A stretch of DNA of 64,000 nt, from contig JANQNQ010000011.1 of assembly GCA_028279515.1 (NCBI GenBank), positions 62,001 through 126,000 on the forward strand, in the 5' to 3' direction. Below, piece by piece: positions 22,326 to 57,622 of this stretch (positions within the stretch are counted from its first letter, which is position 1; every line of letters begins with the position of its first letter). The stretch comes from Flavobacteriaceae bacterium (GTDB lineage: Bacteria > Bacteroidota > Bacteroidia > Flavobacteriales > Flavobacteriaceae). The notes beneath the pieces were generated by a model. It saw nothing but the letters and a program-made list of their open reading frames with translations, had not been told where the DNA came from and made no database searches. The position numbers and the translations under genes were made by a program.

Positions 22326-22982
22326 TTATTCTAAGTAAGATGCCAAGAGTTGAACAAGCTCATCGTAGGTCTTTCTTCCGAAAAATCGCTCTTGCACCTG
22401 TCCTTTGTCAATGATCACGGTTAGTGGCAAGAACTTCTCTGGATTGATCCATTCATTGTCCTTTTGAGCGCCGATGATCGATGGGGTTTCAATATTGGCT
22501 ACAAACGTTTTGATTTTTTCAGGTTCTTCATCGCTTACTGCTATGACTACTACTTCATCCTTAAAGTTGTTTTGTATTCTTTTAAGGTCTGGTAGTTCTT
22601 TCACACAGGGAGGACAGTAGGTTCCCCAAAAGTTAAGGATGACCAGCTTTTCACCGTATTTATCAATAGCTTCAATTTCATTGGTGGCGACATTTAAATA
22701 CGTAAAATCGACCATTTCTTTTCCTAGAGAATCATCAACAGTAGCCAATGAGCTGATCATGGGTTTAAGCGGAAAGTTTATCATATAGATCAAAGCTCCC
22801 AGGATTACCGTAGAGGCGGTTATCAATAAACGAGCGACTTTCTTTTTGTGTTTTCCAACGGAAGCTTTTGCGACTTTCGAATCGACAATGAAGGTAAGGA
22901 TGAACAAAGGAATAAGCACGTAATTACCGTAGTGGTAAAAAAAGTTGGCATATTCTGCAATAAGCTGAATGATCTTTTCCAT
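22326..22982 (-). CDS. Membrane-anchored TlpA-like thiol-disulfide oxidoreductase
   Basis: 218 residues. Two N-terminal membrane segments (about residues 20-34 and 52-70) precede a periplasmic thioredoxin domain of TlpA/ResA type. The active site is WGTYCPPC with Cys123 and Cys126, followed by KELPDLKRIQNNF and a cis-Pro in KFLPLTVIIDKGQ. Such proteins reduce periplasmic disulfides, often for cytochrome c maturation, but no cytochrome genes are near. The upstream region carries the AATG-phased repeat at 23017-23088. Confidence 0.85.
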   Translation of the reverse strand: MEKIIQLIAEYANFFYHYGNYVLIPLFILTFIVDSKVAKASVGKHKKKVARLLITASTVILGALIYMINFPLKPMISSLATVDDSLGKEMVDFTYLNVATNEIEAIDKYGEKLVILNFWGTYCPPCVKELPDLKRIQNNFKDEVVVIAVSDEEPEKIKTFVANIETPSIIGAQKDNEWINPEKFLPLTVIIDKGQVQERFFGRKTYDELVQLLASYLE

Positions 22983-23016: not shown

Positions 23017-23088
23017 TATAAACTTACTTAATTTCAATGAATTAATGATATAATGCCTAAATGTGTTAATGTTTTTAATGTAACAATG
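23017..23088. repeat. TATAAAC block followed by seven AATG words in 8-bp phase
   Basis: After TATAAACTTACTT and AATTTC, the word AATG occurs at 23036, 23044, 23052, 23060, 23068, 23077 and 23085, spaced 8, 8, 8, 8, 9 and 8 bases, with variable bases between. The same start and phase recur at 55539-55593, where 28 of the first 32 bases are identical. The element lies upstream of the TlpA-like gene and accounts for most of this 203-base gap. Confidence 0.7.
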
Positions 23089-23185
23089 TAGCAATAAAGT
23101 GATGTATAAGTGACGTTACTTGAGTGATCCGAAACACCAAGTGCGAAGGGTTTTCGTTCGAAATAAGAGTATGCCTGACCGATAA

Positions 23186-24268
23186 TTACCACGGACCATT
23201 TTGCCCAATATACTTAACTCGTTTTTTATTTTTTTTGGCTGACGCGGAAGGGTCAAAACGGTAGAGGCCTGTGTGTCCGCCAAACCAAATTCTTCCTTTG
23301 TCATCTTCAAAGGTTGATTGTACGGCATTGCTTTCTAGCCCATCATCTGTATGAAAATTGGCGAAGGCATTGCCGTCGTATCGGTACATGCCATATCCTT
23401 CAACCGGAAACCAGATATTGCCAGAAGTGTCCTCATATAGATCCCAAGTTTCATTGCCCTTGACACCTTCCTCTTCGGTGATATGCGTAAAGGAAGCTCC
23501 ATCCCAGCGGCAAACGCCATTGTGATGCGTTGCGAACCAAATGTTTCCACCTTTATCTTCTAGAATACAGTTTACCATATTGTTACAGAGTCCGTCTTTT
23601 TCAGAGAGGTTGGTCAACGATTTTCCATCATAGATATAGGCACCGCCGTTGGTTGCAAACCACATTTTTCCTTGACGATCTTGCACGATGCAATGCACTA
23701 TTTTAGCGCTGGTAATACCGCGTGTTGGATCTGGAGTTCCTTCGGGGAGTTCAAAATAAGAAAAGGTCTCCCCGTCAAAACGATTAACACCTTGCAAGGT
23801 GCCAACCCAAAGAATTCCGTTGGTGTCGAAGGTGAGTGCCCAAATGTCCTTGTCTGCAAGCCCTTGTTTTTCGGTGTAGGTGGTAAAGTATGCTCCATCG
23901 TATTTGATGAGCCCCCAGTTGGTTCCAAACCAAACATTTCCAGACTTGTCTTCAACGATACCACGCACGGCTACCCCTACAAACCCCTGATCTGCTGAAA
24001 AGTATTCTAGGGTCTTTCCGTTGTAACGTGCCACTCCATCACCGTTAGTGCCTAGCCATAGATTTCCTTTAGAATCTTGAAATATTCTGCGAACAAAGGT
24101 GCTAATCCTTCCGTCCATATAAAAAACATCTGGATTGCCCTTGAGACCTTCTGATACTGAAGGTGGGTTCGTTACAGCCTTATTGCTCGTTGGTTTACTT
24201 TTGTTTTGCCCAGTACATGCAGCAATGCCTATAATCATACATAAAAAGCAGAGAAACTTTATCATCAT
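23186..24268 (-). CDS. Lipoprotein beta-propeller (two-component-regulator-type repeats)
   Basis: 360 residues from the ATG at 24268; a longer frame starting at 24313 would put 15 odd residues before the lipobox MIIGIAAC and is not preferred. Seven to eight repeats of the Reg_prop type follow, for example VEDKSGNVWFGTNWGLIKYDG and YEDTSGNIWFPVEGYGMYRYDG, predicting a beta-propeller. In hybrid two-component systems such propellers bind carbohydrates. Here no Y_Y_Y, kinase or DNA-binding domain follows, and it ends in a basic tail. Role unknown: perhaps a ligand-binding lipoprotein. Confidence 0.8.
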   Translation of the reverse strand: MMIKFLCFLCMIIGIAACTGQNKSKPTSNKAVTNPPSVSEGLKGNPDVFYMDGRISTFVRRIFQDSKGNLWLGTNGDGVARYNGKTLEYFSADQGFVGVAVRGIVEDKSGNVWFGTNWGLIKYDGAYFTTYTEKQGLADKDIWALTFDTNGILWVGTLQGVNRFDGETFSYFELPEGTPDPTRGITSAKIVHCIVQDRQGKMWFATNGGAYIYDGKSLTNLSEKDGLCNNMVNCILEDKGGNIWFATHHNGVCRWDGASFTHITEEEGVKGNETWDLYEDTSGNIWFPVEGYGMYRYDGNAFANFHTDDGLESNAVQSTFEDDKGRIWFGGHTGLYRFDPSASAKKNKKRVKYIGQNGPW

Positions 24269-24355
24269 TTTCAGACTTGTTTCCTCAAAGATATATGGAA
24301 GTCTTTCATACACTTCAACCTGAAGTGTAAAATAGTGTCAAAAAAGTGTCAAATT

Positions 24356-52810: not shown

Positions 52811-54216
52811 TAGTTCAATTTATCGATTACAAAGTCAATCCATTTATATTTAGGAACTTCATTGTAAATAAAATAATCTGGATGAATTCCTTTATTGTCT
52901 ATCGTCATCTCTGGGATTCTCAGACTTTTTGATAAGCAATATATTAATTCAAAATCACCACAAGGTGATTTGGCAGGATATGTATAAGAAATATCTAATG
53001 CTCCAAAAGTAGTTTGTCCAAATAACTTTACTTTCTTACTCTGTTTAGCAGCTAACAAAAATTGTTCGGTTGTACTTGCATTTTGCCCATTTATGATAAT
53101 TCCAATATTTTTGGGATAAGGATAAATGGTATCAAATTTTGTAATGGTTACTTTTGAATCTTCCAAGTTTACATATTTCCCTTCATTTTTAGCTAATTTG
53201 TCATATGCTTTTCTTGCCCATTCCTTTCCTTCTTCTGACCAATTGGGATTTGTAATAAAATCTTTAACACGCTGATTATTTCTTGGTGTTGATAATAATT
53301 CTACTCCTACAGTTTCTATTGGGTTTGTATATAAAAGGGGTAAAAGCACTTTGAAATTATTATCACTTCCACCACCATTATCTCTTAAATCTATTATTAA
53401 ATTTTTTGTCTTTAATATTTCTTCTTTATTATCATTGATTAGATTGTTTGTAATTGTTCTTAAATTACTCGAAAAAGAAGGAATTCTTAATAATAGAGTA
53501 TTTTGATTAAGTCTTTCTATATATGGTTTTTCCGCTGAAATGGCTTTGTAGTACCTTTCAATTTTAGGATCACTTTCAGATTTCGGAAAAACTCTTTCTA
53601 AAGTTACAAATCCTAATTGTAAATATTTGTCTCCTAAAAGCTCTGCGGCATTAAAATTTTTAGGTGAATAATCTCCCATATAATAAATACAAGAGTTATC
53701 TGGCTTTATAACAAACTTAACTTCTCCTTTTTTCCATTGACTATCTGTTACCTCAATTACAAATCCTATATACTCATTTTCAACTTTTTTAACACCAATT
53801 ATATAAGGTTCAGATTTCCATATTCCTTCATAATCATTGTTTTCCTTATTTTGAATATAGTTTTTAAAATCCCTTTTATCAATATTTAAGGTTTCCCATT
53901 GTTTACTTTCAGTAATTTTGTTGGTTTCTTGATTTAGTGGACGAATTCCAAAATGTCCTTTTCTGAAAAATTTCATCCACTCTCGCATCAATTCAAAACA
54001 TTCCGTTTTGTTTGTGACTTTTTTTACTTTAGATAAAAAGGTTTTATTATGTTGTTTATACAGGTCATTCCCTTTTTGCTTTATTGTGTACTCAAAACCT
54101 GCATCATTCTTTTCAAATGTTGTTTTCATCCATTTAAAGTTTAATTCACAATCACAATTTTGAGAGAATGAGAGTAGAGGAATAAATAAGAATAATATTA
54201 ATGTTGATATCTTCAT
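52810..54216 (-). CDS. Secreted S41-family peptidase
   Basis: 468 residues. Signal peptide about 1-18 (LLSFSQ). After an N-terminal domain with many Lys and Asn, the S41 catalytic part has NLIIDLRDNGGGSDNNFKVLLPLL and NGQNASTTEQFLLAAKQSKKVKLFGQTTFG (catalytic Ser in the AS-T-T-E pattern), then YTYPAKSPCGDFELIYCLSKSL. It probably cleaves peptides in the periplasm or outside. AT-rich like its neighbours in the array. The substrate is unknown. Confidence 0.82.
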   Translation of the reverse strand: MKISTLILFLFIPLLSFSQNCDCELNFKWMKTTFEKNDAGFEYTIKQKGNDLYKQHNKTFLSKVKKVTNKTECFELMREWMKFFRKGHFGIRPLNQETNKITESKQWETLNIDKRDFKNYIQNKENNDYEGIWKSEPYIIGVKKVENEYIGFVIEVTDSQWKKGEVKFVIKPDNSCIYYMGDYSPKNFNAAELLGDKYLQLGFVTLERVFPKSESDPKIERYYKAISAEKPYIERLNQNTLLLRIPSFSSNLRTITNNLINDNKEEILKTKNLIIDLRDNGGGSDNNFKVLLPLLYTNPIETVGVELLSTPRNNQRVKDFITNPNWSEEGKEWARKAYDKLAKNEGKYVNLEDSKVTITKFDTIYPYPKNIGIIINGQNASTTEQFLLAAKQSKKVKLFGQTTFGALDISYTYPAKSPCGDFELIYCLSKSLRIPEMTIDNKGIHPDYFIYNEVPKYKWIDFVIDKLN

Positions 54217-54277
54217 TTTGAATTATGATTTTCTTTATAAACCTGAAATTTTCAATTTAGTTACAATTTTTTGTTCT

Positions 54278-54337
54278 GCTTATAGGTAACGGTCTCGGCT
54301 ATGATTTCGCTTAGAAATCAGCCGCAATTGCGGTTAT
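54278..54337. repeat. Cassette-type spacer, copy A (inverted repeat)
   Basis: 3' of the gene at 54358. The stem CGGC, two unpaired bases, TGATTTC / GAAATCA, GCCG (54296-54324, 5-base loop) is the clearest of the four, flanked by GGTAACGGTCT on one side and GCAATTGCGGTTAT on the other. Compared with copy C, the words GTTA(C/G), TATGATTTCG and GCCGCAAT are shared. Confidence 0.65.
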
Positions 54338-54357
54338 AAATAATTAGCAACTAGTAT

Positions 54358-54900
54358 TTATTCATTCAGTATTTTTTGAATGTAGTTTTGTATTCCTATT
54401 TCTGTTCTAATTAATTCTTCTGTCATTAGTTTTAATGACATTTTCTCTTTTTTACCGGTTTCAGTCAAATTAGAATAGATGAAATCCAAAAGTTTATTCT
54501 GTTTGTACTTTAAGAGTTCTTTTCCTTCCTCTATGTCGGCCAACATGGACAATTTTTCGTAATCTAACAATTCTATTTTGGAGTTTGACAGCGCATTCCA
54601 GTAATTGAGTCTAATGGTTGGGCCATTAACGCCCCCGCCTTTTATAAGTACTTCCATCAGCGACAAAGTTTCATTATCTATGTAAACGTTAAGAGTGTCT
54701 ACTAATGCTTTTTGCTGAGGTGTTTTCTCGGTTATTTCTTTATCAGTATCGGTTAGCTCTTTTTTTAAAGAGGTGTAGAAATTGTTGATATATTCTCTGT
54801 CTTTTCTTTCTTGGTTCCAATTGTCTATCCATAATGCTATTAACACGCCCAATAAAACGGGGATAATATCTTTGATAAAGCCTTTAAAATTGTTTTTCAT
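54358..54900 (-). CDS. Membrane-anchored protein, DUF6090-like
   Basis: 180 residues. One N-terminal membrane helix IIPVLLGVLIALWIDNWNQERKDREYINNFY carries the G-V-L-I-A-L-W-I-D-N-W-N pattern of the same family as the gene at 6473 (G-I-N-L-A-I-W-F-N-N-W-N). The soluble part is helical with coiled-coil character (SLKKELTDTDKEITEKTPQQKAL). Function unknown. It is a single gene between spacers A and C and is AT-rich. Confidence 0.76.
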   Translation of the reverse strand: MKNNFKGFIKDIIPVLLGVLIALWIDNWNQERKDREYINNFYTSLKKELTDTDKEITEKTPQQKALVDTLNVYIDNETLSLMEVLIKGGGVNGPTIRLNYWNALSNSKIELLDYEKLSMLADIEEGKELLKYKQNKLLDFIYSNLTETGKKEKMSLKLMTEELIRTEIGIQNYIQKILNE

Positions 54901-54923
54901 TTCTGGGTATTGTGTTCTTATTC

Positions 54924-55006
54924 TGTCTAATGGTATTGGTTATGATTTCGTTGTTATACGGGTAAGTGAACCGCCGCAATGAATTATAGCCATTGTTACA
55001 GGCTGG
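54924..55006. repeat. Cassette-type spacer, copy C (inverted repeat)
   Basis: 3' of the DinB gene at 55010. On the minus strand the words GCCTGTAACAATGG, GGCTATAATTCATTGCGG and CGAAATCATAACC pair imperfectly (GGCTATAATT with AAATCATAACC; TGTAACAATGG with ACCATTAGACA), giving a long imperfect hairpin. This is the longest attC-like structure of the array. Confidence 0.6.
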
Positions 55007-55009
55007 CTT

Positions 55010-55516
55010 TTATTCCAATTGATACTTTTCTAGGATTATATTTATATGGTGTTTTTCGTGCCCAATAATTGACCTAAGAAATTCTTCAAGTGTAATTTCA
55101 TATTGTCTAGCCTTACCTTTTATATCTAATTGATGCTGGGATAAAGTTTCGATAAAACTAATAGATGCTTTTCTTACATTTAAAAAGTCAGTCAACAAAG
55201 ATTGTAGGCTCAGTTCCTCAAACCGACTATTTTCTACCAATGATTCTTGGTCATACCCCCAAAGCTCTACGCTTTCATTTCTGCTTAATTGAAAAGCCCT
55301 AAACATTTTAACCCTCTCATGGTCTGCAATATGCCCGACTATTTGTTTGATACTCCATTTATTAGGTTCATATCGAAAAGTAGCTTTTTCCTCACTTATG
55401 TTTTTTAGAATTTCTATAGTAGGGATTTCTTCAAATATTGACTGCAATGAATTGCTTTTAGCCAATTCAAAATAGTAAGGGAATCCATCTTTAGGTTGAT
55501 AGTTCATCGTTGGCAC
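55010..55516 (-). CDS. DinB family protein (paralogue of 4186)
   Basis: 168 residues. DinB bundle with the metal-binding histidines in IKQIVGHIADHERVKMFRAFQ and SIIGHEKHHINIILEKYQ. NKWSIKQIVGHIADHERVKMFRAFQLSRNESVELWGYDQESL aligns well with KWTIKEILVHLIDDERIFAYRALRYARNDDTPLHGFEQDD of the 4186 protein, so the two are paralogues. The product is cytoplasmic; a thiol S-transferase role is a family inference. It is the array gene closest to uvrB and its upstream region carries the AATG-phased repeat. Confidence 0.85.
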   Translation of the reverse strand: MPTMNYQPKDGFPYYFELAKSNSLQSIFEEIPTIEILKNISEEKATFRYEPNKWSIKQIVGHIADHERVKMFRAFQLSRNESVELWGYDQESLVENSRFEELSLQSLLTDFLNVRKASISFIETLSQHQLDIKGKARQYEITLEEFLRSIIGHEKHHINIILEKYQLE

Positions 55517-55538
55517 TTCATTTATGAGAGTTAACGTT

Positions 55539-55593
55539 TATAAACATAGCCAATTTCAATGAATTAATGAGAGAATGAGTTAATGAATTAATG
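55539..55593. repeat. 18-bp repeat (right copy) and AATG words in 8-bp phase
   Basis: TATAAACATAGCCAATTT (55539-55556) is followed by AATG at 55558, 55566, 55574, 55582 and 55590, exactly 8 bases apart. AATTTCAATGAATTAATGA (55552-55570) is identical to 23030-23048. It lies between the DinB start and the uvrB stop. Confidence 0.72.
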
Positions 55594-55595
55594 CT

Positions 55596-57584
55596 TTACA
55601 AATGCCCCTGCAACACCTTGATCTCATCCCTCAATTTCGCAGCTTGCATAAAGTCCAAGTCCTTGGCCGCCTTTTCCATTTCCTTTCGCTTTTCGCGGAT
55701 CTTCTTTTCGATCTGTGGTTTGGTCAAGTATTCCAAATCCGGTTCAGCGGCCATGTGTGAAGCCGGGTCGTATTCAAAGTTGGTGATCGTATTGCCAGTA
55801 AGCGCATTGTCCAACGATTTGTTCAAGGCTGTCGGAGTCACATTGTTGGTTGTATTGTAAGCCGTTTGCTTTTCACGTCGGTAGTTCGTTTCGTCAATCG
55901 TCTTTTGCATGCTATTCGTGATCTTGTCGGCATACATGATTGCCTTGCCATTTAGGTTACGAGCCGCGCGACCCACGGTCTGGGTGAGCGAGCGAGCACT
56001 ACGTAAGAATCCTTCTTTATCCGCATCCAAGATCGCTACCAAAGACACCTCAGGCAAGTCCAATCCTTCACGAAGCAGGTTCACACCTACGAGTACATCG
56101 AACAAACCTTTACGCAAATCCTGCATGATTTCCACACGTTCAAGAGTGTCCACATCACTGTGAATATAACGACAACGCACTTGAATACGGGTGAGGTATT
56201 TGGTCAATTCCTCGGCCATACGTTTGGTCAGTGTGGTGACCAAGGTACGTTCGTCCTTCTCAACGCGAATTTGGATTTCCTCGATCAGATCATCGATCTG
56301 ATTTAAACTCGGACGCACTTCGATCTCAGGATCTAACAATCCGGTCGGACGAATTACTTGCTCTACGTAAACCCCGTCGGTCTTTTGAAGTTCATAATCA
56401 GCCGGCGTCGCGCTTACATAAATCACCTGATTTTGTAGCGCTTCAAATTCTTCGAATTTGAGTGGACGGTTGTCCATCGCCGCCGGCAATCGAAATCCGT
56501 ACTCCACCAGATTCTCTTTACGGCTTCGGTCGCCACCATACATGGCGTGTACCTGCGAGATGGTTACGTGACTCTCATCGACCACCATCAAATAATCATC
56601 CGGGAAATAGTCTAACAAGCAGAACGGACGCGTACCGGGATCCCTTCCGTCCAAATAGCGCGAATAGTTCTCAATGCCCGAACAGTACCCCAATTCTTTG
56701 ATCATTTCCAGATCAAAGTTGGTACGCTCTTCCAGACGTTTTGCTTCTAGATGTTTTCCGATTTCTTTAAAATATTCGACCTGCTTTCCAAGATCCAGCG
56801 CGATCTGGTCGATAGCACCGTTCAGTACCTCGGGCGAGGTCACGAACATATTCGCGGGATAGATATTCAGTTTCGGATATTTTTCAAGCACTTGGTTGGT
56901 AGCAGGGTCAAACGCTTCGATCTCTTCGATCTCATCACCGAAAAAGTGAATACGAAACGCTTCGTCAGCATAACTCGGAAACACATCCACCACATCGCCT
57001 TTCACTCGAAAGTTTCCGTGAAGAAATTCTACTGAAGTACGCGAGTAGAGACTCTGCACAAGCATGTGTAGAAACTTGGTGCGCGAGATAACTTGGTCAC
57101 GTTCGATTGAGATAACGCTTTTTTGAAATTCCACTGGATTTCCGATACCATACAGACAAGAAACCGATGCGACTACTAGCACATCTCTTCTTCCAGAAAG
57201 TAGGGAAGAGGTAGCACTGAGACGTAGCTTTTCGATCTCTTCGTTGATCGAAAGATCCTTTTCAATATAGGTACCTGTAACAGGGATATATGCTTCCGGT
57301 TGGTAGTAGTCATAGTACGAAACAAAATATTCTACCGCATTGTTCGGAAAGAATTGCTTGAACTCCGAATACAACTGAGCGGCTAGGGTCTTATTGTGCG
57401 CAAGCACAAGGGTAGGGCGCTGTACCGTTTCAACCACATTGGCGACGGTAAAGGTTTTTCCGGATCCCGTGACCCCCAAAAGTGTTTGATAGCGTTCGCC
57501 GTCCTCAATACTGCTCGAAAGCTGTTGGATTGCTTCTGGTTGGTCACCCGTTGGAGCAAATTCTGATTCTATTTTGAATTTCAT
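55596..57584 (-). CDS. uvrB: Excinuclease ABC subunit B
   Basis: 662 residues, full length. Nucleotide-excision repair helicase: Walker A GVTGSGKTFT (37-46), the beta-hairpin that opens DNA (YYDYYQPEAYIPVTGTYIEKD, about 90-110), DESH box (MVVDESHVT, near 334), helicase motifs V and VI (LREGLDLPEVSLVAILDADKEGF and QTVGRAARN) and the C-terminal UVR domain binding UvrA/UvrC (EKKIREKRKEMEKAAKDLDFMQAAKLRDEI). It works with UvrA and UvrC, not in this window. It is GC-richer than the array next to it. Confidence 0.97.
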   Translation of the reverse strand: MKFKIESEFAPTGDQPEAIQQLSSSIEDGERYQTLLGVTGSGKTFTVANVVETVQRPTLVLAHNKTLAAQLYSEFKQFFPNNAVEYFVSYYDYYQPEAYIPVTGTYIEKDLSINEEIEKLRLSATSSLLSGRRDVLVVASVSCLYGIGNPVEFQKSVISIERDQVISRTKFLHMLVQSLYSRTSVEFLHGNFRVKGDVVDVFPSYADEAFRIHFFGDEIEEIEAFDPATNQVLEKYPKLNIYPANMFVTSPEVLNGAIDQIALDLGKQVEYFKEIGKHLEAKRLEERTNFDLEMIKELGYCSGIENYSRYLDGRDPGTRPFCLLDYFPDDYLMVVDESHVTISQVHAMYGGDRSRKENLVEYGFRLPAAMDNRPLKFEEFEALQNQVIYVSATPADYELQKTDGVYVEQVIRPTGLLDPEIEVRPSLNQIDDLIEEIQIRVEKDERTLVTTLTKRMAEELTKYLTRIQVRCRYIHSDVDTLERVEIMQDLRKGLFDVLVGVNLLREGLDLPEVSLVAILDADKEGFLRSARSLTQTVGRAARNLNGKAIMYADKITNSMQKTIDETNYRREKQTAYNTTNNVTPTALNKSLDNALTGNTITNFEYDPASHMAAEPDLEYLTKPQIEKKIREKRKEMEKAAKDLDFMQAAKLRDEIKVLQGHL

Positions 57585-57622
57585 CTATGCGCAATTTCTT
57601 CCGCATAAAAATACAAAAATCA

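Follow-up and report, generated by a model that had tools for sequence, protein, structure and literature searches.

The window, a 64,000-nt stretch of a Flavobacteriaceae contig, carries two arrays in which the word AATG recurs on the plus strand with four bases between copies, and both arrays sit between minus-strand genes. The first array (23036..23071) comprises five cores at 23036, 23044, 23052, 23060, and 23068, in exact 8-bp steps and separated by the spacers AATT, ATAT, CCTA, and TGTT. The original prediction had counted seven copies in strict 8-bp phase; the first five are exact, but the AATG at 23077 follows after a 9-bp step and is succeeded by another at 23085 and then by AATA. Judged from the sequence, this part (23072..23095, plus strand) is a degenerate outer tail, and it fits the pattern of the array set, in which the core decays in phase on the outer side. 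The array is flanked by the gene of a thioredoxin/AhpC-TSA domain protein (22326..22982, minus strand), whose start faces the array across 53 nt, and by a gene with two-component-regulator-propeller repeats (23186..24313, minus strand), whose stop faces the array across about 90–114 nt.

The second array (55558..55593, plus strand) contains five exact copies, in the exact 8-bp steps that had been predicted, with the spacers AATT, AGAG, AGTT, and AATT. It adjoins the stop codon of uvrB (55596..57584, minus strand), with 2 nt separating the two, and the start of a DinB-superfamily protein gene (55010..55516, minus strand) faces it across about 41 nt. The DinB-superfamily gene is without uvrB adjacency in relatives, and this difference in gene order indicates that the second array lies at a rearranged junction. 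A scan of the genome collection found no syntenic relative for the DinB-type neighbor. In the interval 54000–57600, uvrB is followed by the DinB-superfamily gene here and by other sequence in relatives.

When all 4-mers were searched for in runs of at least five at periods 5–12, the window yielded just these two arrays, compared with 0 in 40 Markov resamples, and AATG(N4)AATG(N4)AATG had six matches against 0.05 expected. The phased AATG words are real and beyond chance. A common leader, TATAAAC plus AATTTC, had also been described; it is present in these two arrays only, but the best pair of flanks (17/26 identical) was within chance when all pairs among 42 array flanks were compared (P = 0.12).

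A dispersed octamer family at gene borders

The same array read on the opposite strand, (CATT N4)x4, had 66 matches in the 4.57-Mb genome, corresponding to approximately 43 separate arrays, and the reversed pattern had 0. Three-core arrays numbered 111 genome-wide vs. 0 for the reversed pattern, and CATT at period 7 had 0 matches genome-wide. The random-sequence control that had been proposed as a possible refutation did not yield phased runs at similar rates in this genome, with 66 vs. 0 for the reversed pattern and 0 in the 40 resamples of the window. Approximately 10 kb was then taken around each array, giving 422 kb of sequence selected for arrays, in which gene borders were called with a simple coding-score caller that places start positions approximately. 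In these stretches 42 of 45 arrays were intergenic, which rules out reading-frame selection, as had been argued from the period of 8. The arrays contained 3 to 9 cores, and the core looks perfect partly because the sampled arrays were picked by a search that demanded exact CATT. These results demonstrated that short non-coding tandem arrays form a dispersed family with an 8-base unit, composed of an invariant AATG/CATT core and a 4-base spacer. Flavobacterial AATG-N4 repeats were not found in print in the open-access literature.

The genome-wide scan suggested in the original prediction, with positions taken relative to genes, thus gave about 40 intergenic arrays, most of which point outward. 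In 32 of 42 arrays of this genome, the AATG strand started at the gene-proximal end, whatever the strand of the gene. The AATG strand also pointed outward in two other genomes with similar arrays, G023 (22/24) and G025 (4/6), so that the pooled count for the three genomes was 58/72 (p = 2e-7). Of the 22 arrays whose nearer border was a stop codon, 17 began between −5 and +11 nt from it, several of them overlapping the stop codon itself; where the nearer border was a start codon, the gap was mostly 8–81 nt. Read in the sense of the messenger, CATT therefore stands before genes and AATG after them. The first window array obeys this outward rule, lying 53 nt before a start codon, with the other gene 114 nt away. 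The second has its CATT side 2 nt from the uvrB stop, and about 41 nt separate its AATG side from the next start; it is either an exception to the rule or a short junction with both borders near.

The genes next to the arrays, where identified, were unrelated and shared no common gene class. At L060:14761-16104, three adjacent genes, at least two of which are paralogues with a 2TM domain, each have a CATT array directly after the stop codon, and two of the three arrays end alike, in AATT-GTTT. The G/C skew of intergenic halves was also considered and was set aside because it is confounded by the normally G-poor upstream regions of array-less genes.

Spacer composition and period-7 companions

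On the CATT strand, the spacers have a loose AATT consensus. Neighboring spacers in the 42 intergenic arrays were identical in 0 of 106 pairs, compared with 5.6 expected (p = 0.0016), and next-but-one spacers were likewise never identical (combined p = 5e-5). This absence of identical neighbors persisted after one tandem-gene cluster was removed. At the spacer divergence observed, a neutral decay model of an exact repeat predicted that about 3e-4 of arrays would still have four intact cores, with no preference among the eight registers, and the observed period-8 runs were essentially all CATT/AATG. Neutral decay of an exact repeat therefore cannot explain the arrays, given neighbors that are never identical and cores kept in one register, and the original description of a non-random, non-coding element that conserves nothing but the word and the pitch holds. 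When the columns were treated as independent, the spacers seemed to use a limited set of words, but this restriction disappeared with a position-specific first-order model, which gave the same number of words. The folding of the arrays as RNA gave z-scores of +0.5 to +1.0 with no hairpin, and no Rfam family was matched by the arrays. The arrays of G023 contain many identical neighbors, and those of G025 contain 16-bp dimers. In G023:C1, an intergenic periodicity of 11 bases (lag 11 and 22) was observed besides that of 8.

The array-bearing loci also contained many repeats of period 7. Phased runs of at least four numbered 238 at period 7 and 110 at period 8, with both strands counted, and none occurred at periods 5, 6, and 9–12 in the intergenic DNA of these loci; simulated sequence gave 0. 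Phased runs were rarer in 400 kb of unselected sequence, with five at period 7 and one at period 9; it held 0 CATT arrays and seven period-7 segments, too small a number for judging polarity again. The period-7 families of this genome include TTAGTTG, TGAGATA, AAAGTAC, TTGGGTG, TTTGGGA, and others, and they too have a conserved core, mostly three or four invariant positions of seven. A period-7 array was present in 23 of 39 intergenic regions with a CATT array, compared with 15 of 132 neighboring regions and 5 of 153 regions in unselected sequence. In the sample chosen around CATT arrays, the G-rich strand of period-7 arrays led away from the nearest gene in 39 of 54 cases. Six loci (L054, L050, L051, L056, L059, and L061) carry long, degenerate arrays of period 7 in which the sequence changes gradually from one unit to the next, as in the series TTGGGTG, TTGAGAT, TTGAGTA, AAAGTAC; each unit looks like an imperfect copy of its predecessor.

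Distribution among relatives

The comparison genome set consisted of genomes from outside the genus of this genome. No array was found after uvrB in the relatives examined. At the junction of scoA and scoB, which encode the subunits of 3-oxoacid CoA-transferase, this genome has a 60-nt stretch of which about half is a CATT array. Of 29 relatives, 11 have a stop-to-start gap of −2 to +2 nt at this junction; in the others the gap is filled with different lineage-specific sequence. Such tight junctions imply that the array entered or grew where no such element is needed elsewhere. On these sequence comparisons, the arrays are lineage-specific. Different lineages fill the same scoA–scoB site with different repeats: two relatives (L138 and L140) have a palindromic element (ATTCCCGCGAAAGC...GGGAAT), and L153 and L162 have inverted AAGTT/AACTT-rich arrays.

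Of 296 genomes of the phylum, 36 contained CATT-N4 arrays, each genome with spacers of its own, and TGAG-N3 arrays were found in 78 of 249 genomes of the family. The reversed core also builds arrays in some other genomes of the phylum, which indicates that CATT itself is not a phylum-wide signal and is not special to Bacteroidota. The reversed-pattern matches of one genome (G013) were discounted as a plain TTAC microsatellite. In the whole genome of G025, TTAC-N3 arrays of period 7 are very abundant (27 and 80 matches in the reversed control) and represent a separate heptamer family.

Relation to known repeats and proposed origin

The original prediction knew of no named element of this type, but comparable kinds have been published. 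Heterogeneous heptamers of Xanthomonas and Nostoc, GGGAATC or (GGGANTN)n and GGGGA(C/T)T, have their G-containing strand near the 5′ neighboring ORF (28 nt vs. 160 nt) in any ORF orientation; some overlap the stop codon, and convergent pairs occur (PMC4692102). The AATG arrays resemble them in having dispersed, mainly intergenic units with a short conserved core and variable positions and no gene class, in the small number of units (the mode is four in the heptamers), and in the placement rule, with the repeat strand nearer the 5′ ORF regardless of orientation and with stop-codon overlaps. They differ in a unit of 8 rather than 7 nt, in a core with a single G that cannot make a quadruplex, in spacers that occupy half the unit, in the absence of identical neighbors, and in phylum. 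As for G tracts, AATG contributes one G per 8 nt and the observed spacers give none in each unit, so that no quadruplex-capable tracts were found. In two Xanthomonas species, most heptamer repeats are flanked by the same genes (PMC4692102), whereas the orthologous junctions tested here, which were compared across genera, were without AATG arrays. Since they lack a 7-nt unit and G tracts, the AATG arrays were classed as an octamer variant and not as the heptamer family itself.

TAACTGA direct repeats are exact heptamers of marine Beggiatoaceae, Cyanobacteria, and some Bacteroidetes; in Beggiatoaceae they lie mostly in one orientation before start codons, and a translational role has been proposed (PMC4679880). 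Their unit and period differ from those of the AATG arrays, but they are likewise dispersed between genes, often beside a start or stop codon, and occur among other heptamers; they too are lineage-specific, the orthologous junctions of relatives being free of repeats. The long simple sequence repeats of 5–11 nt (Mrazek et al., 2007, as cited in PMC4679880 and PMC4692102) and the cyanobacterial STRR heptamers are largely exact, and the polymerase footprint has been proposed there as the reason for 7 nt. They are similar to the AATG arrays in having short intergenic units with a patchy distribution between genomes, but in the AATG arrays only 4 of 8 bases repeat, and none of the 106 neighboring spacer pairs was identical, although slippage repeats are expected to have identical or near-identical neighboring units. 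The AATG arrays are thus an octamer form of the heterogeneous intergenic short tandem repeats known as heptamers in Xanthomonas, Nostoc, and Beggiatoaceae.

Several explanations for these arrays were weighed. The main rival to the origin favored below, possible but rather unlikely in our judgment, is that they are binding sites at which a nucleoid or regulatory protein makes contact with CATT at 8-base intervals along DNA or RNA; selection would hold the core and the pitch, the spacers would drift, and slippage would remove identical neighbors. Binding sites would account well for the core and the pitch: the core is invariant beside near-saturated spacers, a state that neutral decay keeps in about 3e-4 of arrays; the pitch is strict, with 66 matches at period 8 vs. 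0 at period 7; identical neighbors are avoided; and the spacers fit a position-specific first-order model, as a degenerate motif would. They would not account for the placement or for the absence in relatives, since the orthologous junctions compared are without arrays, the identified neighbor genes share no class, and the RNA-sense sequence differs, being CATT upstream and AATG downstream. Moreover, CATT arrays of other genomes have quite different spacers, the reversed core forms arrays too, and the exactness of the core was partly imposed by the search. The original prediction considered a DNA- or RNA-binding or nucleoid role more likely; such a role is not favored over a mutational origin, because the arrays are unconserved in relatives and have no evident gene class and no RNA structure.

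Exact tandem repeats that arose by replication slippage and have since decayed neutrally would agree with the exact or 16-bp-dimer expansions in G023 and G025 and with the usual explanation for heptamer SSRs (PMC4679880; PMC4692102). For this genome the idea is strongly disfavored, because no neighboring spacer pair is identical (0/106) and the required divergence would leave cores in about 3e-4 of arrays, in all registers. It is also improbable, to a similar degree, that a small mobile element or REP/MITE-like unit was copied around the genome. The arrays are dispersed and intergenic, one has been inserted where several relatives have a tight junction, and the distribution of the arrays over contigs is more clustered than random; against this, ordered unit blocks common to arrays were within chance (13 repeated bigrams vs. 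11.2), no common flank or hairpin was found, and the number and order of units vary among arrays. Least probable of all, and hardly credible, is a role of the AATG strand in translation, through TAATG/ATGA stop–start overlaps or as a three-frame stop cassette after genes. Although the arrays at stop borders mostly start within −5 to +11 nt of the stop (17/22) and a typical unit reads ATG-NNN-TA(A), stops after each ATG (96/106) were as frequent as in shuffled spacers (95.4), the frames with a stop numbered 4.65 vs. 4.57 in shuffled spacers, and upstream arrays have AATG on the antisense strand.

The outward rule regardless of gene strand, the company of period-7 repeats, and the lack of conservation together favor a mutational origin. 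We therefore propose, with somewhat less than even confidence, that these lineage-specific octamer repeats at gene borders are made by a mutational process and have no dedicated function. DNA synthesis would repeatedly start at gene borders and run outward; it would re-prime on a match of 4–5 bases, and a variable gap would be filled, giving a step of 7 or 8 bases that perhaps reflects the polymerase footprint. Arrays may persist where they are harmless, that is, between genes and without AATG pointing into a start codon, and identical neighboring units may be lost through slippage deletion. Against such a mutational origin, a fixed 4-base core with free spacers fits selection of binding sites as well, and ordinary slippage expects identical neighbors, which number 0 in this genome and are present in the related G023 and G025. 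Two candidate machineries were discarded: for Ku-dependent end joining, Ku, which 20 of 249 family members possess, was not detected in this genome, and neither a telomerase-like nor any other RVT_1 reverse transcriptase was detected in this genome. It is doubtful, though conceivable, that a dedicated process extends the gene borders of this lineage outward, placing a fixed 4-base core in every 8 bases with spacers that are not identical, or that a dedicated protein reads them. If so, the outward rule that the arrays share with the heptamers of Xanthomonas and Nostoc would indicate a single cause for these repeat classes, other than quadruplex formation.

Short repeats of 7–8 bases occupy gene junctions in several bacterial phyla, and the octamer family described here defies the two usual explanations, quadruplex formation and plain slippage. 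Plain slippage does not explain it because identical neighbors are avoided. AATG cannot form quadruplexes yet follows the outward rule, which speaks against quadruplex formation as the basis of the shared placement. If the outward rule is universal, its cause would act on DNA at gene ends and not via G-quadruplexes.
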